From the NCBI RefSeq assembly GCF_000226115.1, contig NC_016459.1:558001-622000 (forward strand): a DNA stretch of 64,000 nt. Direction: 5' to 3'. Under the pieces are notes generated by a model. It made no database searches. It was not told the DNA's origin and was given only the letters and a program-made list of their open reading frames with translations. Both the position numbers and the translations under genes were made by a program. Positions 17,601-27,593 of this stretch are shown here, piece after piece. The stretch comes from Thermothielavioides terrestris NRRL 8126. Taxonomy: Eukaryota > Ascomycota > Sordariomycetes > Sordariales > Chaetomiaceae. How positions within the stretch are numbered: position 1 is the first letter of the stretch; each line of letters starts with the position of its first letter.

Positions 17601-18155
17601 CTCGCCTATATAAATTTATTATTATATTCTAAAACTTTGATATATAGTTGATACTGCCTTTTAAATAGTATAGCGAGGTATTTAATAGCTACTAGGATGC
17701 CTAGCGCCTTATAGTCGTATAGATAGTAGTCCTATATTATACCTAAATAGCGATCTATCGCTAATAGTAGATGTTTAAAGCGCTATCGGCCTTCTTAGAA
17801 AGGGTATAAATCTAAGGCGATCTTATCGCCTAGGCTATAGTTCAATGGCCTAGGAATATAATTAAACCTACATTTTAACTTGCTAAAGCTATAGCTATTA
17901 TATTCGAACGTTAATACGCCTTTGATATATCCTCCTTATAAATAATTGACGAAATATTCAAAGGCCTTTAGGCCTATATAGCTAAGGCGTAGGTGCTAAG
18001 TTATAGTATTTGCTATACTCTCTATATAGCGAGCCTAGCGATCGAGTCTCTTCGTTTAGGTAGCAAAGGCTATAGGTATATAGTCTTCAGGTATATATTC
18101 AAAGATATATTGTTAAAGCTTCTTCGTAGTATATCCAAGGAGCGTATAATCTTAG
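14681..18155 (-). pseudogene. RIP-ruined copia pol (integrase, RT, RNase H relics)
   Basis: Read on the minus strand, the remains run integrase core (about 18100-17500), integrase tail (17500-17260), RT (about 16500-15800) and RNase H (about 15350-15200). Stop codons, mostly from CAA/CAG-to-TAA/TAG and TGG-to-TAG changes, interrupt every domain. No frame longer than a few dozen codons survives, so the element cannot encode its own proteins. Confidence 0.85.
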
Positions 18156-18749
18156 TGTCATGCCCCGGAGCCACCCTAACCCGCGGGACCCGCCTCGGCA
18201 CCCGGCACAGCCCTCGGAACGCGCCTCGGCACCTGGCACAACCCTCGGCCCGACCACCTCGCCCTGCATCCGGCACCCGGCGCAGCCTGGCCAACCACAG
18301 GGCACCACGCAGGTCATCTGCGTGCGCCACCAGGGCGCACGTCAGTAGCCCAGATCACGCGAGCCACCCGGAGGAGCGATCGGAGGGGCACAGAGCTGAG
18401 CGAAGTGCGGGGCATCAGGCTGAGCAAGTGCGGGGAACTGAGACATTGGGTCGGCAGCAGAGCGGATTGGGCGCACTCAGGGAGCTATGCAGGCGCCACA
18501 GGATGGCCCAGGAAAGGATCTGCGAGCTCAGGAATGGAGGCTGGCCGATGCGGAGGAAGATCGAGGGCCAGGATGGGAGAAATAAGGAGGATGGAACCCA
18601 CAGGCAGTGGGAGAGGCCAGCGTTCAATGCAACCACCCGCAACCCCCCTACCTGTAGCTACCCTGTAGCGCGTGCTCTGCTTGTGCCTTGCTCGTACTCC
18701 GTCACTTCAACGTATACCCCCTTCCTTCTGGGAGCCCCCGCTCCTGACA
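18156..18749 (+). repeat. Gypsy 5' LTR
   Basis: 594 bp, TGTCA to TGACA. A TATA-like AAATAA at 18580-18585 lies about 35 bp before the proposed transcript start at 18619, giving U3 of about 463 bp and R plus U5 of about 131 bp. The open frames inside the LTR are incidental. Confidence 0.95.
18619..18627 (+). promoter_or_regulatory. Proposed self-primer at the transcript 5' end
   Basis: AGCGTTCAA in the LTR is exactly complementary to TTGAACGCT at 18752-18760, just inside the 5' LTR. A tenth G:U pair is possible. Tf1/sushi chromoviruses prime reverse transcription by folding the first bases of their own RNA back onto the primer site. The distance from the TATA-like box fits. Confidence 0.55.
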
Positions 18750-18750
18750 A

Positions 18751-18760
18751 GTTGAACGCT
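18751..18760 (+). promoter_or_regulatory. Primer-binding site
   Basis: GTTGAACGCT begins 2 bp after the 5' LTR. It lacks the TGG start that pairs with the CCA end of a tRNA primer, but pairs with the LTR segment at 18619-18627, supporting self-priming. Confidence 0.55.
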
Positions 18761-18800
18761 CTTATCCCACCTCAGGGAGTTGAACCGGCGGAGACGAGCC

Positions 18801-20462
18801 ATGGCCCAGACCCGCGCCCGCGCTGCGCTCGAGCAGAGCCCTGCACCCTCGCAATCTCAGGCACTTTCCACCGATCCGACCTCTTCGTACACCCTCTCCG
18901 CACCGCCTGCGCCTGACGCCACCATGGGCGAGAGCTCCCAGCACGCCCAGATTGATCTGAACGGCTCCCGTGCAGCGCCTATCGACCCCCTGCTCTCCAC
19001 CCAGGAGCGCGACCTTGCTGAGGAAGAGCGCCGTCTGAGCGCTGAGATCGCTCTCGAGCGCCGCCGTCAAGCTATCCTCCAACTGCGAGCTCAGCATGCG
19101 CAGCTCCTGCGCCAGAATGCCCAGCTTGCGCATGTTGCCGAGGGCGCCACCTCTTCGAATTCCGACCCTCTTGCCGCCCAGACCGCCAATACCACCGTGC
19201 CGGCTGCATCTGTTGCCGCGCCTGCGCCCGCACCCGCTCCTGCACCTGCTCCTGCGCCTGTTGCCGCGCCTGAGGCTGCGCCCGTGGCCGCTGCGCCTGC
19301 GCCCGCACCTGTGGCCGCACCTGTGGCCGCGTCTGTTGCCATCGATGCCCCTCCGCCCGCTGCCAATCCTGAGTTCAGCGCTCCTATTGCGCCCTCGCCG
19401 ATCCTTCCCAGCGCTGCGGGAGCTCCCCTCTGGCGTGCCGCTGGCTTGAACCACCCCACGTACAGCGGCAAGGATGCTTCTTCGCTTCGGGCCTTCCTGT
19501 ACGACTGCCGCACCAACTTCCAGCTCATGGGCTACTCGCTCGATGGTAGCGACTGCGTTGCGTACGCGGCAAGCTGCCTCCGAGGCCCGCCCAAGAACGC
19601 CTGGGTGAAGTATGTCCAGGAGCAGGAGGCCGATCCTAACTTTCGTCTCTCGGCCATCACCTGGGGCGAGTTCGTTGCGTTCCTTCAAAACGAACTATCT
19701 GATCCCGATTCGCGCGCCTTCAGTGCGGCCTCGGAGCTTGAGCGCCTCGCACAGCGCGAAGACGAGACCGTCCCGGAGTTCGTTGAACGGTTCACCAGCG
19801 TAATCGCCGACATGCCTTCGAAGTGGGATGAACCCACCCGCATAGTCACCCTCCTGCCGAAGTTCCGCCCAGAGATCAGCTTCATCCTCAACTGCTCCCC
19901 CCAGTTACCCGCTACGTTCCAGCAGCTCGTGAGCTTCGCCCGCCGTATCGAGCATAGTCAGCGCATTGCCGGCACCTCTCGCTATCGCCCTCGCTCGTCA
20001 AACAACGCCCCCACGGCTCCGCAGCCGCCGCGCCCTGTTAACGTCCCGCCCGCGCCCTTCCAGCGCCCCGTTCGATGCTTCACCTGCGGCAGGGAGGGCC
20101 ATCGCTACGCCAACTGCCCCGAGAACCGCCCTCCTGCCCAGCCTGCCCCGCCTTCTGCCCCGCCTGTTCAGCCTGTTCCGCCTGCGGCTGCGCCCACCCA
20201 GCTTCCTCCTGCGCAGCCCGCACCCCAGCAACCCGCCCCAGATGCTGCCACGGCACCCGCTGCTGCGCCCAAGTCGCGCCCAGTTTGCTACACCTGCAAC
20301 GAAGTTGGCCACATCTCCACATTCTGCCCCAAGGCCATCTGCCGTCGTTGCGGGCGTACAGGTCACACCGCTGTTCGTTGCCCGGAGCCTCTGAACCCGA
20401 ACGCCCAGAATAACCCGAACCTTGCTCCGCTCGGGCGCGACCGCAGCGCCAACGCCGCCTAG
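18801..20462 (+). CDS. gag: Gag polyprotein of the gypsy element
   Basis: 553 aa from ATG 18801 to TAG 20460-20462. The N-terminal third is Ala/Pro-rich, with a PAPAPAPAPAP run. A retrotransposon gag core (about residues 210-390) has the usual WVKYVQ..W..F...L and ELERLAQREDETVPEFVERF segments. Three CCHC zinc knuckles follow: CFTCGREGHRYANC, CYTCNEVGHISTFC and CRRCGRTGHTAVRC, split by a Pro/Ala linker. They bind and package the element RNA. The earlier in-frame codon near 18780 is TTG, so ATG 18801 (51 bp after the LTR) is the likely start. Pol continues in the same frame after the stop. Confidence 0.93.
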   Translation: MAQTRARAALEQSPAPSQSQALSTDPTSSYTLSAPPAPDATMGESSQHAQIDLNGSRAAPIDPLLSTQERDLAEEERRLSAEIALERRRQAILQLRAQHAQLLRQNAQLAHVAEGATSSNSDPLAAQTANTTVPAASVAAPAPAPAPAPAPAPVAAPEAAPVAAAPAPAPVAAPVAASVAIDAPPPAANPEFSAPIAPSPILPSAAGAPLWRAAGLNHPTYSGKDASSLRAFLYDCRTNFQLMGYSLDGSDCVAYAASCLRGPPKNAWVKYVQEQEADPNFRLSAITWGEFVAFLQNELSDPDSRAFSAASELERLAQREDETVPEFVERFTSVIADMPSKWDEPTRIVTLLPKFRPEISFILNCSPQLPATFQQLVSFARRIEHSQRIAGTSRYRPRSSNNAPTAPQPPRPVNVPPAPFQRPVRCFTCGREGHRYANCPENRPPAQPAPPSAPPVQPVPPAAAPTQLPPAQPAPQQPAPDAATAPAAAPKSRPVCYTCNEVGHISTFCPKAICRRCGRTGHTAVRCPEPLNPNAQNNPNLAPLGRDRSANAA

Positions 20463-20496
20463 GAACTCGGGGGGCCCAGGTCGTCTCGGATCGAGA
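20460..20496 (+). promoter_or_regulatory. Putative gag-pol UAG readthrough signal
   Basis: GCC-UAG-GAA is followed by a G/C run (GGGGGGCCC) and a perfect 5-bp hairpin TCTCG/CGAGA (20484-20488 with 20492-20496). Gag and pol share one frame across this codon. Retroviral readthrough sites also place GC-rich structure downstream of a UAG. The structure here is modest, so its role is inferred mainly from frame continuity. Confidence 0.5.
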
Positions 20497-23400
20497 GCAC
20501 TGTCCTCGTGCGCTTGGATAAGAATTGGAAGCCTGCGGTAGCAATGCTAGATACTGGGTCGGATTACAACATGATCAGTCGCAGCTTTCTAGCTGAGCAC
20601 TCGCAGTTGACCAAGTTCATTCAGTGCCCTGGATTTGCCGCTGTTGGCAATGTGCCTGTTCTGACGTACGGCGTGTGCCCCCTGCATGTTCGCATCACCG
20701 ACCACCTTGGATACTCCCAGACCTGCCTGCTGCGCTTCGTGGTCGCAGATATCGAGCCATTCACAATCCTCTTGGGCCAGACTTGGATGGAGATGGCCGA
20801 GCCATTCTTCAACTACCACGAAAAGACTTGGACTTACCCGAACTCGAAGCGCCACCTTGGCTTGCAAGTTGAGCCCAAGCAGGATTGGAGCGATAATGCT
20901 TTCCTTGTTGCCGCGCTTGTGCCAGTCACCGACCCAGCCGAACCGCCCGACCCAGCCAACCCAGACGACCCAGCCGAAGAAGACTCGCCCACCGTTGGCT
21001 TGCAACCTGCTACTCCCGAGCTCCCGGAAGTGTATGAGGCCTACCGAGACCTCTTCTCCACTGCGGATCGACCTCCCCTGCCTCGCCACACTGCGCTTGA
21101 GCACCGCATCGATCTCGAAGACGGTGCGACTGCGCCATGGGGGCCGATCTACCCTCTCAGCGAGAAGGAATTGGAAACCCTGCGCAAGTGGCTCGCGGAG
21201 GCTCTGGAGAAGCAGTGGATCCGACCTTCCACCAGTCCCGCAGGCGCGCCCATTCTGTTCGTTCCGAAGAAGGGAGGCGAATTGCGCCTCGTTGTCGACT
21301 ATCGTGCGCTCAATCACATCACCCGCAAGAACCGCGCTCCCATTCCTCTGATCGGCGAGATCCTCGATCGCCTGTCTTCCGCGAAGATCTACACCAAGCT
21401 CGATTTGAAGGATGCGTACTATCGGATCCGGCTGCGCGAGGGCGACGAGTGGAAGACCGCCTTTCGCACGCGTTACGGCCACTTCGAGTTTGTTGTGATG
21501 CCGATGGGCCTGGCTAACGCACCCGCAACCTTCCAGACTTACATCAACCATGCCCTCTCTGGCCTTGTTGATGTCACCTGCATCGTGTATTTGGATGACA
21601 TACTGATCTTTAGCAACGACGAAGCTGAGCACGAGCGGCATGTGCGCGAAGTTTTGGAACGGTTGCGAAAAGCCGACCTCTACGTCAACCTTCCCAAGTG
21701 CCGGTTCCATGTGCGCGAAGTCGAATTCCTCGGGTTCATTGTCACCCCGGAGGGCATCAAGATGGAACCATCGCGCGTTGAAGCCATTGCGCAGTGGCCG
21801 CTACCTCGCAGCGCTCACGACATCCAGGTGTTCCTTGGGTTCACTGGCTTCTACCGCAGGTTCATTCGCAACTACTCGAAGATCTGCGCCCCCCTGACCG
21901 ACCTACTCCGAGGCAATCGCACCTTTGAGATGACACATGATGCGATCGATGCGTTCCACGAGCTACAGCGCAGATTCCAGGAAGCGCCCGTCCTGCGCCA
22001 TTTCGATCCCAGCCTTCCGACCCGCGTTGAGGCAGATGCTTCGAAGTTCGCCATCGGCGCGGTCCTCTCCCAACTGTTCGAGGGCCAGTGGCACCCTGTT
22101 GCGTTCCGCTCCCGCAAACTCAGCCCCGAAGAAACGCGCTACGGCACCGGTGATGGGGAGCTGCTTGCGCTCGTCGACGCCTTTCGTGCCTGGCGGCATT
22201 ACCTCCTGTACTCGCAGACCACCGTCATCGCCCTCACTGACCACCTAAACCTCGAGTACATGAAGACGAAGAAGCGGCCCTCTGCGCGGCAGCTGCGCTG
22301 GAGCGATGAGCTCGCAGAATTTGACTTCGTCATTAAGTATCGCCCCGGCCCGCAGAACCCTGCTGACGGACTCTCTCGAAGACCAGACCTGGCAGAAGGC
22401 CCCAGCGACGAGGGCGCCGAGAACCCGCTGCTACGGCTCCTGGAGGAGCGTATTGCTGCGGGAAAGGACCATGTGCCAGGGCACCGCTCTACGGTTGGGG
22501 TTGTCACTCTGGCTGTGCGGCCGAGACCCAGTATGGGCCTCAGAGAGTTGGAGGATGCGTATGAGCTGCGTGAGCGGGAGTTTGATGAGAGTGTTGCGCC
22601 TGATGTGCGCCTCGAGGAGGGCCATCGGGAGGTCTCGCAGCGCGTGGGTAGCGGCAAGCGTCACCGTGAGCCCACGGCTGGGGACGAGGGAGAGGCGGCG
22701 GCGCAGAGGCCTCGCCTGGATGACGCTTTTCCACTGGTCAACCACGGCTTGGACGGAAGTGCCACCCGCGGCCCAGATGGACCTGGTAAACCGCCGCTGG
22801 AGCGTGGCTCCCCGGAGGCCCAGGAAACACACGCAAGGGAACCTGGCCACCCGGGGCCTGGGCGGCGACCCCCCTCGGACCAGACGGCCCGCAGCAGTCT
22901 GGCTGGCGGCGTGCGTGCGCCTGATCACCGCCCGTACGTCGCTGCCGCTGCTAGGAAGCCGGTGGAGGACGAAGGCTGGCCTTTTGAGCAGCAACTAATC
23001 CAGGCACAGGAAGTCGATCCCTGGGTGACTGAGGGCGCTTGGAAGACGGCTCGCATGCGCAGGCAGTGGAAGCTCGGAGACGATGGCATCCTGCGTTACA
23101 GCGGCAGGATCTATGTGCCTGCGGCCCTGCGGCACACGCTTTTGGCGCGCTACCACAACGCTGCAACAGGTGGCCATGGCGGCATCAGGAAGACTCGCGA
23201 GCGCCTGATGCGCTACTACTACTGGCCGGACATGCGCAGGGAGATCGATCAACATGTGGTGGAATGCGTCACATGCGGCCGCACGAAAGCGAGAACCCAC
23301 CGCCCTTACGGCGAGCTCGCAGCGCTGCCGGTTCCTGAGCGCCCGTGGCAGGATATCACGGTCGACTTCGTCACTGGCCTGCCCACCTCCATCGACCCCC

Positions 23401-24437
23401 GCACGCACAAACCCTGCGACGCCGTCCTCGTCATCGTCGACAAGTTTACCAAGTACGCCCTCTACATCGCAACGCACAAGCAGCTCCAGGCTGGCGCCTT
23501 TGCCCACCTCTTCTTCGATTACGTCTACCGACCCTTCGGCCTGCCGCAGACCATTGTTTCCGACCGCGGGAGCTTGTTTACAAGCGGGTTTTGGCGCGCA
23601 CTCTGCGACCTCTTGGATGTCACGCAAAAGCTGAGCACTGCGTACCATCCTCAGACTGACGGCCAGACAGAGAGGCAGAATCAGGCGTTGGAGCATTACC
23701 TGCGCACTTACTGCGCGTGGGAGCAGCATGACTGGGCGCAGAAGTTGGCTCTGGCCGAACACACTTACAACACCTCAGTGCATTCGGCTACGAAGGCGAC
23801 CCCGGCATACCTCCTTTACGGCTACCACCCGCGCGATCCGGCAGACCCGCTTGCGAACAGCTCGAGCAACGTTCCCGCTGCGGAGGAGCGTGCTAGGAAG
23901 CTCGCCAAGGATCGGGAAAGAATCCGCGAGGCCCTGGTGCAAGCCAACGAAGGTTATGCGAAGTGGTACAACCGCAAGCGCACGCCCATGACCTTCAGAG
24001 TTGGCCAGTGGGTTTGGGTTGATTCAAGGCACATTCGCCAGCGGCGCCCGAGCAGCAAACTCGCAGATAAGTATCTCGGGCCGTTCAAAATCATCGCTGA
24101 TGTGGGCAGCAAGAAGATGGCGTATCGCTTGGATCTCCCGCCTGCGTTCAAGTTCCACCCTGTTTTCTCTGTTGCGATGCTCGAGCCGTTCAACGGCAAC
24201 CTGCAGGAAGCGCTCGCGTACCGCGATCGCGTGCAGGTCGTTGCGCAGGAGCAGCATTGGGAGGTCGAAGCCATTCTTGATCATGCAGGGCCACCTCTCG
24301 ACAGGTATTTCCTCATCAAGTGGAAGAACTACCCGCCAGAGGAGAACACCTGGGAGCCGCGCAGGCATATTGATGACGGGCCTTTACTGCGCGCTTACGA
24401 AGCACGCATTCAAGATGAGCACAGGCGCAGGCGATGA
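20463..24437 (+). CDS. pol: Pol polyprotein: protease, RT, RNase H, integrase, chromodomain
   Basis: 1,324 codons, open from directly after the gag UAG in the same frame, with no ATG before the protease active site. Order: aspartic protease (LDTGSD, residues 29-34), reverse transcriptase with YLDDILIF (about nt 21587), RNase H (VEADASKFAIGAVLSQ, about 22030), a charged spacer of about 200 residues, integrase zinc finger (H-x6-H and CVTC, about 23155-23280), DDE core (VDFVTGL, VSDRGSLF, GQTERQNQ) and a C-terminal chromodomain (YFLIKWKNYPPEENTWEP). The chromodomain, which steers insertion to modified chromatin, marks a chromovirus. All catalytic residues are present. The lack of a separate start suggests expression by stop-codon readthrough. 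Confidence 0.95.
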   Translation, partial: ELGGPRSSRIESTVLVRLDKNWKPAVAMLDTGSDYNMISRSFLAEHSQLTKFIQCPGFAAVGNVPVLTYGVCPLHVRITDHLGYSQTCLLRFVVADIEPFTILLGQTWMEMAEPFFNYHEKTWTYPNSKRHLGLQVEPKQDWSDNAFLVAALVPVTDPAEPPDPANPDDPAEEDSPTVGLQPATPELPEVYEAYRDLFSTADRPPLPRHTALEHRIDLEDGATAPWGPIYPLSEKELETLRKWLAEALEKQWIRPSTSPAGAPILFVPKKGGELRLVVDYRALNHITRKNRAPIPLIGEILDRLSSAKIYTKLDLKDAYYRIRLREGDEWKTAFRTRYGHFEFVVMPMGLANAPATFQTYINHALSGLVDVTCIVYLDDILIFSNDEAEHERHVREVLERLRKADLYVNLPKCRFHVREVEFLGFIVTPEGIKMEPSRVEAIAQWPLPRSAHDIQVFLGFTGFYRRFIRNYSKICAPLTDLLRGNRTFEMTHDAIDAFHELQRRFQEAPVLRHFDPSLPTRVEADASKFAIGAVLSQLFEGQWHPVAFRSRKLSPEETRYGTGDGELLALVDAFRAWRHYLLYSQTTVIALTDHLNLEYMKTKKRPSARQLRWSDELAEFDFVIKYRPGPQNPADGLSRRPDLAEGPSDEGAENPLLRLLEERIAAGKDHVPGHRSTVGVVTLAVRPRPSMGLRELEDAYELREREFDESVAPDVRLEEGHREVSQRVGSGKRHREPTAGDEGEAAAQRPRLDDAFPLVNHGLDGSATRGPDGPGKPPLERGSPEAQETHAREPGHPGPGRRPPSDQTARSSLAGGVRAPDHRPYVAAAARKPVEDEGWPFEQQLIQAQEVDPWVTEGAWKTARMRRQWKLGDDGILRYSGRIYVPAALRHTLLARYHNAATGGHGGIRKTRERLMRYYYWPDMRREIDQHVVECVTCGRTKARTHRPYGELAALPVPERPWQDITVDFVTGLPTSIDPRTHKPCDAVLVIVDKFTKYALYIATHKQLQAGAFAHLFFDYVYRPFGLPQTIVSDRGSLFTSGFWRALCDLLDVTQKLSTAYHPQTDGQTERQNQALEHYLRTYCAWEQHDWAQKLALAEHTYNTSVHSATKATPAYLLYGYHPRDPADPLANSSSNVPAAEERARKLAKDRERIREALVQANEGYAKWYNRKRTPMTFRVGQWVWVDSRHIRQRRPSSKLADKYLGPFKIIADVGSKKMAYRLDLPPAFKFHPVFSVAMLEPFNGNLQEALAYRDRVQVVAQEQHWEVEAILDHAGPPLDRYFLIKWKNYPPEENTWEPRRHIDDGPLLRAYEARIQDEHRRRR

Positions 24438-24551
24438 GCGGCGGGAACGCAACGAGGGCGCCAAGCGGCGCTTCAATTGAGGAAAAAAGAAAAGAAAAGG
24501 AAAAAAGAAAAAAACAACGCAAGAACCACCCACCCACCCAACAGCCACCCC

Positions 24552-25887
24552 CTACATCGCCAAGTCCTTCTCCAAGCCCTGGATCGACTCCGTCACGAAC
24601 TCGGCCACCTGCGCGTCATCAGCGCCCTCCTCGCTACCCCCCTCCCCCTCCTCACCCTCCTCCGGCGGCGGACCCCAGCTCTTCACCACCACCAAAATTT
24701 CATTCTTTGATTGTTAGCCACACACACGCTTCGTGGACGCAACGGACTCGCAGACTTACCACCACCCCCTCCACACGCTTCTGCTGCTCCTCCAGCTTGG
24801 CCAGCCTCTCCACCACCTCCTCCAGCGTAGTGCTAGGAGGAGGGGGAGGAGGTGGGAGCGGCGCGGGCGCGCCGACGAAGCGCCGGAGGCGCCTCTTCAG
24901 CACGCCCTCCGCCTTCCGCACCTCCCCCCACTGCTCCGAGAAGTTCTCGGAGCGGGCGGTGGGGGCGACCGGGGCACCGCTGATGGCCTCGCGGGCCACC
25001 GCAAGCGCGTCGACGACGCCCTGGACAAGCGCAGCCGGCTAGAACGCGCTCAGTACACGCATCGCGCACGCAGGGGAGACACTTGAAAACTTACCTTTTC
25101 ATCGGCGGCGGGGTGGTCCCTCTTGTCGAGGGCTTCGATAAAGCCGCAAACTGCGGCGAGGGCAGTAGGATGAATCTTCATTTTTTCAGAGGGATCAGCA
25201 ACAGCGCAACGCACACGCAACGAAAACGCAGGTTTCGGCTTCAAGGCGCTGAGGTCAGCGCCTTTGAAGGAGGAGGGCAACTCACAGCCGGGCAAGTATG
25301 GTTATTTTGCGCACACTCGACGCAGCGCGAACCGGAACCTACGAGCATGTCAGACGCAACGAACACGCAACCTACACGCAGACACGCACCGGCTTGATGG
25401 TGGCAGACGGGGGCGCCACCACTGTCGAAAAACTTGGCCACACAACGGCGGCAGCTACCATTGTCAGCACACGCACAGCCCGCGCCTCCGACACGCTTCG
25501 GTTGCGCTCTCTGCACTTACGGAATGATGCGGGCAGCGCCCGCAGGGACTCTCTTCTTGGGCGTCGAGTCAAGGTCACTGGACTGCCGCACTGTCAGCGA
25601 TCGCGTTGCTCCCCATCTGCGCCCTCTCTACGTACCGCCCTTCTCTTGCGGCCGAAGCCGCCCTTGCGCGGAGTCGGAGGCTCGGATTCCTCCATCTCTT
25701 CGTCCTCGTCCTCCTCCTTCTTCTCCTCCTTCTCGTCGTCGTTGGCGGGCGCAGCCGCCGCGCCAGACGCACGCTCCGCGGGAGCCGCGGGCGCGTCGTC
25801 GGCGGGCGACTCCGCCTCGCCAGCAGGGCGCTCTTCAGGCGCCGCGTTGATGGGCCGGAAGCCCAGGCTCGAGAACAACTTTGACAT
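24552..25887 (-). CDS. Antisense cargo gene of the gypsy element: six-cysteine protein of unknown function
   Basis: Seven exons on the minus strand, 25887-25636, 25582-25521, 25454-25390, 25338-25286, 25175-25095, 25038-24760 and 24704-24552, join in frame to 314 aa. Donors are GTACGT, GTAAGT, GTGCGT, GTGAGT, GTAAGT and GTAAGT. All acceptors end in AG and several introns carry CTGAC or CTAAC branch sites. The protein begins MSKLFSSLGFRPINAAPEER and runs through an acidic/lysine stretch (DEKEEKKEEDEDEEMEE). A motif C-x2-C-x12-C-x9-C-x2-C-x6-C follows, split over exons 3 and 4. A helical C-terminal half contains a likely coiled coil (TLEEVVERLAKLEEQQKRVE). The weakest acceptor is that of intron 4 (25175). 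No enzyme or known domain was recognised; the cysteines may bind zinc. Confidence 0.8.
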
Positions 25888-26400
25888 GATTGCTTCTACC
25901 CAGCGTGTCAGCAGCGTCCGCCCTGCTCCATCCATCGACATCTCAGCGTTGAAGGTCACTCACGAGGCGCGGCCGGAAATGAATGAGTTATTTGAATCTG
26001 CCACATTGTCAGCGCACCATTGCATTCTTCCCGCCGGCCGCGCAGCGAGTTCGCCAGCCACGCGGCCCTCGCACGCTGGAATCGCCAGAGCCATCCTGTC
26101 GATCGAGAGCCATCCTGCCAATCGACCGAACCATCGCGGGGCGACCTACCGAGGAGAGGCGAGGGCGGAAGCGCCAAAAAAAAAACGAATCATCTGCAGA
26201 GCGAAGAAGTCAGCCATGCGCGCGCGATCAGAGGGAGCGTTAGGAGGAAGCAGAGGGCACGCGCGCGATCGCAATCGCGGGCCAGTATCGCATTGTCGTC
26301 GTGGTGGGCTGGGCACTTAGGTGGGCTGGGCACTTACGAAGATGGCGCGAAGGAAGAAAAGGAGGAAAGGAAGGCTGGGAGCCGCGAGCCCAGAAGATAT
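25888..26400 (-). promoter_or_regulatory. Presumed promoter of the antisense cargo gene
   Basis: Upstream of ATG 25887 on the minus strand. It contains CAATGCGA, CAATGGTGCG and CAATGTGG words, similar in kind to the CAATG-rich DNA beside the gene at 1-838. A tandem pair of GTGGGCTGGGCACTTA occurs at about 26306-26340. No TATA box was recognised. Confidence 0.3.
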
Positions 26401-26738
26401 ACTCGGTAAGGTGGTCCAAGCTTGGAGGGCTCAAAATCCTGTGTTTCTTGCATCGCAATGTTCTGGCAGAAGTTTCAATTCCCCTTTTCCATGTGCGCAG
26501 CGAAGGCGCTTGGGACGCGCATAGTGTGCGCTCCTTACCCCTTTTTCTTTCCTGCCGTCACCCCAAACATGCACACCTTCTATTCAGTTCTATTCAGCTC
26601 TATTGTTGCCTTCCTGTTTCGGGCCTGAATAGGCCCTGAATAGGCGGCCCCAGATCTGAACAGGCCACTTCCATCTGGGCCGCCCTGGATCGCGCATGCG
26701 GAGGAGCAGTTGGATCGATGGAGGCCGCGCATGCAGGA

Positions 26739-26892
26739 AGATCGCAAGCCGCGCATGCGCCACCCGAACTACCGCTACGCGATCTGCCGCCGGCAGGCTA
26801 GGCCGCGGGCCGAAGCGCGACTGACAGGAACCACGCGTGCGGCAAGATCGTAAGCCGCGCATGCGCCACCCGAACTACCGTTACGCAGTCCG
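26739..26892 (+). repeat. 48-bp imperfect direct repeat near the 3' LTR
   Basis: AGATCGCAAGCCGCGCATGC... at about 26739-26786 recurs at about 26845-26892 with a few transitions. It lies between the cargo promoter and the polypurine tract and is of unknown role. Confidence 0.7.
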
Positions 26893-26979
26893 CCGCCGGG
26901 CATGCAAGGCTACGACCCCGAGGCGCGACCACTGCGCCCCTCAGGCTACGGCACGGCAGTCCCTGGGGTCAGGGACCTT

Positions 26980-26991
26980 GAAGGAGGAGGG
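26980..26991 (+). promoter_or_regulatory. Polypurine tract
   Basis: GAAGGAGGAGGG ends 3 bp before the 3' LTR. This is the standard position for priming plus-strand DNA synthesis. Confidence 0.8.
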
Positions 26992-26994
26992 CCC

Positions 26995-27588
26995 TGTCAT
27001 GCCCCGGAGCCACCCTAACCCGCGGGACCCGCCTCGGCACCCGGCACAGCCCTCGGAACGCGCCTCGGCACCTGGCACAACCCTCGGCCCGACCACCTCG
27101 CCCTGCATCCGGCACCCGGCGCAGCCTGGCCAACCACAGGGCACCACGCAGGTCATCTGCGTGCGCCACCAGGGCGCACGTCAGTAGCCCAGATCACGCG
27201 AGCCACCCGGAGGAGCGATCGGAGGGGCACAGAGCTGAGCGAAGTGCGGGGCATCAGGCTGAGCAAGTGCGGGGAACTGAGACATTGGGTCGGCAGCAGA
27301 GCGGATTGGGCGCACTCAGGGAGCTATGCAGGCGCCACAGGATGGCCCAGGAAAGGATCTGCGAGCTCAGGAATGGAGGCTGGCCGATGCGGAGGAAGAT
27401 CGAGGGCCAGGATGGGAGAAATAAGGAGGATGGAACCCACAGGCAGTGGGAGAGGCCAGCGTTCAATGCAACCACCCGCAACCCCCCTACCTGTAGCTAC
27501 CCTGTAGCGCGTGCTCTGCTTGTGCCTTGCTCGTACTCCGTCACTTCAACGTATACCCCCTTCCTTCTGGGAGCCCCCGCTCCTGACA
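26995..27588 (+). repeat. Gypsy 3' LTR
   Basis: 594 bp, no difference from the 5' LTR seen in the stretches compared, followed at once by the CTTAG target duplication (27589-27593). Confidence 0.95.
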
Positions 27589-27593
27589 CTTAG

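Follow-up and report, generated by a model that had tools for sequence, protein, structure and literature searches.

A probable resident antisense accessory gene with six predicted introns in a Ty3/Gypsy chromodomain retrotransposon family of Thermothielavioides terrestris

Introduction

Accessory genes in antisense orientation between pol and the 3' long terminal repeat (LTR) are already known in LTR retrotransposons. In plants, the aORF-3R class is found in maize Grande (gene23), rice RIRE2, and Silene Retand, and a nuclear location or DNA binding has been suggested for some of the encoded proteins (PMC7264820 and PMC11963269, both in excerpt). Boty-like elements of the fungus Botrytis cinerea bear an additional antisense gene, brtn (PMC7264820, PMC8365987, and PMC4227169, all in excerpt), which the excerpted review PMC7264820 groups with the ORFs that lie in antisense in the interval from pol to the 3' LTR. 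HBZ of HTLV-1 and APH-2 to -4 are antisense, spliced, nuclear regulators; HBZ comprises activation and bZIP parts, has its promoter in the 3' LTR, and exists in spliced and unspliced versions that differ at the 5' end and the N-terminus (PMC10186651, in excerpt). Words starting with "intron" were absent from the main texts of PMC7264820 and PMC11963269, and no intron-bearing antisense gene in LTR elements was recognized in our literature search on such genes. What is unusual about the gene described below is that it has six introns.

We analyzed a 64,000-nucleotide stretch (the window, to which all coordinates refer unless a contig is given) of the genome of Thermothielavioides terrestris NRRL 8126, a heat-loving soil fungus. 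A preceding reading made from the letters of the window (the sequence-only reading) had recognized an LTR retrotransposon with an intron-containing gene in antisense and interpreted the latter as cargo.

Architecture of the element

The element (18156-27588) shows the RT-RNase H-integrase order, a C-terminal chromodomain, paired LTRs, and a 5-bp target-site duplication, and is thus a Ty3/Gypsy element of the chromovirus type. The 5' LTR (18156-18749, plus strand; TGTCA...TGACA) and the 3' LTR (26995-27588, plus strand) are the same at 594 of 594 bases, and the element is flanked by CTTAG on both the left (18151-18155) and right (27589-27593). The LTRs without difference and the perfect target duplication that had been reported for this element are therefore both real. 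The gag ORF (18801-20462, plus strand) encodes Retrotrans_gag (PF03732) and CCHC zinc knuckles and ends with TAG, while the pol ORF (20508-24437, plus strand) encodes RT, RNase H, integrase, a Tf2-type SH3, and the chromodomain. At 20460-20466, a single TAG separates gag from pol, which share one frame (the pol frame is open from 20463), so that the pol product may be made by stop-codon read-through. Nine bases of the LTR (18619-18627) are complementary to 18752-18760, just past the 5' LTR, and this complementarity resembles the arrangement of Tf1-type elements, which are self-priming. The surroundings of the element are AT-rich DNA resembling a RIP-mutated Copia element (a weak SH3_retrovirus match, below its cut-off).

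The antisense gene and its predicted protein

We rebuilt the minus-strand gene model from the splice sites read off the sequence, and the resulting model was equal to that of the sequence-only reading, namely a 7-exon gene in the interval between pol and the 3' LTR (24552-25887, minus strand) with six GT-AG introns and a frame of 314 codons followed by TAG. The start ATG is at 25887 in exon 1 (25636-25887), which is followed on the same strand by exon 2 (25521-25582), exon 3 (25390-25454), exon 4 (25286-25338), exon 5 (25095-25175), exon 6 (24760-25038), and exon 7 (24552-24704, stop codon included). The six introns range from 51 to 110 nt, and every one of them is bounded by GT and AG. By eye, CTRAY, a branch-point-like consensus, is present near the 3' end of five introns, and in intron 5 its place is taken by CTGAG. 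From these signals, we infer that the gene is spliced. The promoter presumably lies in the stretch upstream of the gene on the minus strand (25888-26994). The same stretch contains two 69-bp direct repeats (26725-26793 and 26831-26899) that are 87% alike.

The predicted protein of 314 amino acid residues contains an acidic stretch in the part encoded by exon 1 and basic stretches, RKRR and PKKRV (the latter in exon 2), that look like nuclear signals by eye. Near the C-terminus, a heptad-like, coiled-coil-like helix was also noticed by eye. Six cysteines are arranged as C106-x2-C-x12-C-x9-C-x2-C-x6-C142 (25292-25453, minus strand), of which exon 3 supplies CRRC...C and exon 4 CVEC......C, and their spacing is roughly zinc-cluster-like. 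The Zn(II)2Cys6 domain (PF00172) has the spacing C-x2-C-x6-C-x5-12-C-x2-C-x6-8-C. The predicted protein resembles the fungal transcription factors of this type in the six cysteines with two CxxC groups, the coiled-coil-like stretch, and the acidic region, but differs from them in the first loop, which has 12 residues in place of 6. With this loop and no match to Pfam, we do not regard the protein as a member of Zn(II)2Cys6.

The Pfam search with the antisense protein gave no family at an E value of 0.1, and the PDB sequence search gave no match. The protein searches, which used a filter of 5-residue words (with the best 8000 candidates scored in the search with the window protein), detected no relative outside T. 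terrestris; a fast-evolving relative would escape such searches, because shared 5-residue words are required. Viral contigs were scanned for both the antisense protein and RT, and no match was obtained. The window protein had a single relative in the databases searched, namely THITE_117983, a public gene model that lies within another copy of the element damaged by RIP. This model was placed on the antisense gene of the RIP-mutated copy L006 (G000:C3:955457-958009).

Our best guess from the predicted residues is that the antisense protein is a nuclear regulator of the element, and its nuclear location, zinc binding, and regulatory role are predictions from the features above. Alternatively, the resident gene may serve a structural or replicative purpose, such as a nucleic-acid chaperone or integration targeting, instead of regulation. 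The basic, Cys-rich core and the location of this chromodomain element within AT-rich repeats agree with such a role, and the function of this class of antisense ORFs is described as not known in the excerpted review PMC7264820. We nevertheless consider a structural role quite unlikely, as expression from its own minus-strand mRNA is more in keeping with a regulator than with a component of the particle, which is an argument and not a test.

Copies of the element in the genome

We searched the genome (36.9 Mb in 6 contigs) for further copies, and the counts of matches given here are lower bounds. The antisense segment as a probe yielded at least 39 matches, five of which were full-length at 100% identity. 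A 2-kb pol probe yielded at least 35 matches, and the segment was found at most 60 bases downstream in 30 of them; the remaining five are interior pieces that stop short of the 3' end of pol. Altogether, each of the 30 listed pol matches extending to the 3' end of pol is directly followed by the segment. The comparison of adjacency and target-site duplications covered all 35 pol matches and, among the 39 segment matches, the 32 that remained after the seven shortest were excluded. With an RT probe, at least 30 copies of the same family were detected.

In both the segment and the part matched by the pol probe, five copies show 100% identity. The other 25 loci bear C>T/G>A changes of the RIP type. 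For instance, L006 has 551 RIP-type changes versus a single other change. In the region 22940-26994 of 19 copies, the sites were mutated at 78% for CpA, 51% for CpG, 7% for CpC, and 10% for CpT. The divergence of the non-pristine copies consists mainly of C>T and G>A changes and is RIP. Classical RIP favors CpA, and the T. terrestris copies differ from it in that CpG was mutated besides CpA.

Around the five pristine copies, the GC content of the 1.5-kb flanks is 0.34-0.49 in nine of the ten cases and 0.515 in the tenth, all being below 0.6, the value typical of the window outside repeats. The pristine copy on C3 and one of those on C5 lie within one repeat family, which looks like Copia from a weak match. 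The low-GC repeat flanks fit with chromodomain targeting of silent DNA. Two pristine copies (G000:C2:5098475-5107907 and C5:3241011-3250443) have swapped target duplications, as the left GTAAC of the C5 copy corresponds to the right one of the C2 copy, and the left AAGTA of the C2 copy to the right one of the C5 copy. When the flanks were joined across the swap, unbroken alignments were obtained at 39 of 40 and at all 40 of the listed repeat places, figures that pertain to the swapped joins alone. Either a misjoined assembly or a reciprocal exchange between C2 and C5 by way of the element can account for the swap.

No intron loss was observed in any of the 28 copies aligned across the whole antisense gene. 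L026 and L030 were cleanly aligned over part of the gene, and the introns are present wherever they aligned, leaving a firm count of 28 of 30. The sequence-only reading had proposed to ask whether other copies hold the segment and its introns, and both questions received positive answers: the segment accompanies every listed pol match with a 3' end, and the introns are retained in all of the copies aligned over the entire gene. Its idea that the antisense placement hides the splice sites in the genomic RNA agrees with this retention of introns through retrotransposition.

The interpretation of the gene as cargo did not survive the same data. In that interpretation, a recently captured host gene travels in this particular copy together with the introns and promoter that belong to it. 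The complete exon-intron structure in antisense and the introns resembling ordinary fungal ones are what such a capture would give. Nevertheless, the segment accompanies all of the 30 listed pol matches with a 3' end, the heavily RIP-mutated ones among them, and the own-genome search gave no intact host paralogue, just a small degenerate relic and an F-box gene matched in a low-complexity stretch. The search of the own genome with the protein returned the family copies, a relic of exon 4 (see below), the F-box match, and C4:921553 (E value of 0.07). We rejected the F-box match (C1:6116259) as a host source, as it corresponds to a proline-rich stretch and was gone on low-complexity masking. The segment is not restricted to a few copies, as a transduced host gene would be, and the own-genome search gave no host source gene for it; a later nested insertion is rejected on the identical position in 30 of 30. 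Recent capture is thus very unlikely. From the presence of the segment in all of the pol matches reaching the 3' end, the lack of observed intron loss, and the lack of a host source in the search, we propose that the segment represents an accessory gene in which the element family is resident host to its own copy of the coding sequence.

Coding constraint on the antisense frame

Whole-copy substitution rates were set aside because the divergence of those copies is RIP, and we tested selection with non-RIP differences only, which record the variation from before or apart from RIP. The alignment comprised 19 copies (L006-L022, L025, and L028), in which locally dense mismatches were masked; the five identical copies have no differences. 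L023, L024, L026, L027, L029, and L030 were outside this set for nested insertions or divergence, and these copies contributed to the test either through L029 by itself or through clean intervals. As the copies have common ancestry, the P values serve as guides.

In the antisense exons, 7 of the 12 differences at the sites shared among the 19 copies were synonymous against 3.0 expected (P = 0.011), and the corresponding figures for the diverged copy L029 were 13 of 33 against 6.3 (P = 0.0026). When the two were united, 15 of 38 lineage-level differences were synonymous against 7.4 expected (P = 0.0018), and 22 of 67 against 12.9 (P = 0.004) when all distinct differences were counted. Singleton changes in the exons were nonsynonymous in 11 of 15 cases, as expected after insertion. 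The pol control in the union set gave 29 of 44 against 10.6 expected, and the constraint on the antisense frame is weaker than that on pol. For three sense ORFs overlapping or neighboring the gene, no significant synonymous excess was found in the union set (P = 0.33-0.67). The non-RIP changes of L029 amount to 6 per 390 positions in the introns and 33 per 930 in the exons, so the introns are no more diverged. Four exon indels in the clean alignments (3, 12, 15, and 15 nt) are all multiples of three and lie in low-complexity stretches, while lengths such as 1, 2, 4, and 5 also occur in the introns, the spacer, and the upstream region.

Outside the family, we found a relic of exon 4 on C1 (L061:2538-2588, within L061:2538-2603; G000:C1:2829437) with normal GC. 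Eight of its ten differences are at third positions, with seven silent and two replacement codons (P = 0.0016), and all three cysteines are kept. The relic is isolated and sits beside a sugar-transporter-like gene (named by eye). Altogether, the antisense frame appears to code for a protein.

These results also bear on two other readings of the segment. Firstly, the true product might be an env-like sense ORF (25298-26320, 340 amino acid residues), with the antisense frame being its shadow. Such a frame does exist in a GC-rich stretch, and the small set of shared sites showed 7 synonymous differences of 14 against 4.2 expected (P = 0.096), but there was no excess in the union set (11 of 38 against 11.8; P = 0.67) or in L029 (9 of 33 against 10.3). 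As its constraint is not significant, we reject the sense ORF, which we regard as extremely unlikely. Secondly, the segment might work as antisense RNA, a source of dsRNA tuning silencing, with the protein being incidental. Antisense non-coding transcripts are reported for other elements in the excerpted review PMC7264820, and the coding constraint below that of pol is in line with this reading; on the other hand, the synonymous excess in a spliced antisense frame, the in-frame exon indels, and the silent changes in the relic exon argue against it. An RNA function with an incidental protein is thus unlikely.

A second Gypsy family

T. terrestris possesses a second Gypsy family, the RT of which, read through RIP damage, is 43% identical to that of the element described above. 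Beyond its pol lies a 2.3-kb segment with at least 42 long matches, or at least about 40 copies, as counted by segment match alone; the 3' LTR was not located. The antisense strand of the least damaged copy reads a six-Cys layout like that of the 314-residue protein, and five further copies can be aligned to it along 681-825 nt with no indel. Either C or Y is found in the cysteine columns, which is what G>A changes would give, and the first is Y in six of six. The Cys pattern, which was framed after the motif had been seen and allowed Tyr for the first two Cys, appeared in 1 of 3000 triplet shuffles and 3 of 3000 base shuffles, and the same Tyr-tolerant pattern occurred nowhere in the 64-kb window. 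A stricter pattern without internal stops had no match in the second family, and its last four-Cys part alone was found in 17 of 1000 shuffles. When the Cys core was compared with the second family by BLOSUM scoring, the best score of 37 was at another place and was not significant, being reached by 71 of 400 shuffles. A profile search with the second-family readings retrieved one further T. terrestris protein and nothing else. These observations are suggestive, but no proof, of a related antisense six-Cys frame in the second family.

If such a frame exists, antisense genes with multiple introns that encode nuclear, zinc-cluster-like proteins might form an old family common to fungal Gypsy elements, amounting to an HBZ-like switch of latency or timing with an evolutionary origin separate from that in retroviruses. 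The genes would then have been kept intron-rich because of their antisense placement. We offer this broader scenario tentatively, as a possibility that is more doubtful than not.

A model for the antisense gene

Taken together, we consider it probable that the segment is a resident antisense accessory gene of the Ty3/Gypsy chromodomain family, with a spliced minus-strand mRNA and a likely nuclear protein acting on the element. The position of the gene, the splice model, the presence in the copies with a pol 3' end, the retention of introns, and the protein-level selection signal were observed, and transcription and splicing are predicted. When expressed, the gene would be transcribed from the minus strand, and its transcript would be spliced and then translated. 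It is the sense RNA that transposition copies, and the antisense introns read CT..AC there; the introns would survive every round because the splice sites are unrecognized in the RNA that is copied. The protein would enter the nucleus and act on the DNA or RNA of its own element, and the candidate actions, for which HBZ of HTLV-1 offers a close parallel, are repressing or timing sense transcription or helping a nuclear stage.

If this model is true, an LTR retrotransposon can permanently keep a gene with six spliceosomal introns simply by antisense orientation, and HBZ-like antisense regulators may recur in fungi. The 30 copies, of which 25 are marked by RIP, provide a natural test set.

Comparison with known antisense genes

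As far as the excerpted descriptions go, the T. terrestris gene is like brtn in being an extra antisense gene in a fungal LTR element with a chromodomain-bearing gag-pol. The two were compared by description; the protein searches gave T. terrestris matches alone, and brtn may have introns too. The gene is also like the plant aORF-3R genes, as excerpted, in its antisense orientation, its place between pol and the 3' LTR, and its presence in most copies of the family. Of the properties by which that class is recognized, presence in most or all copies was found here in 30 of the 30 listed pol matches with a 3' end, and a conserved coding sequence was found at a level weaker than in pol. Unlike the excerpted plant genes, the T. 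terrestris gene has six introns and no detected relative. With no homology claimed, HBZ, as described in the excerpted source, appears to be the best functional analogue of the T. terrestris antisense gene.
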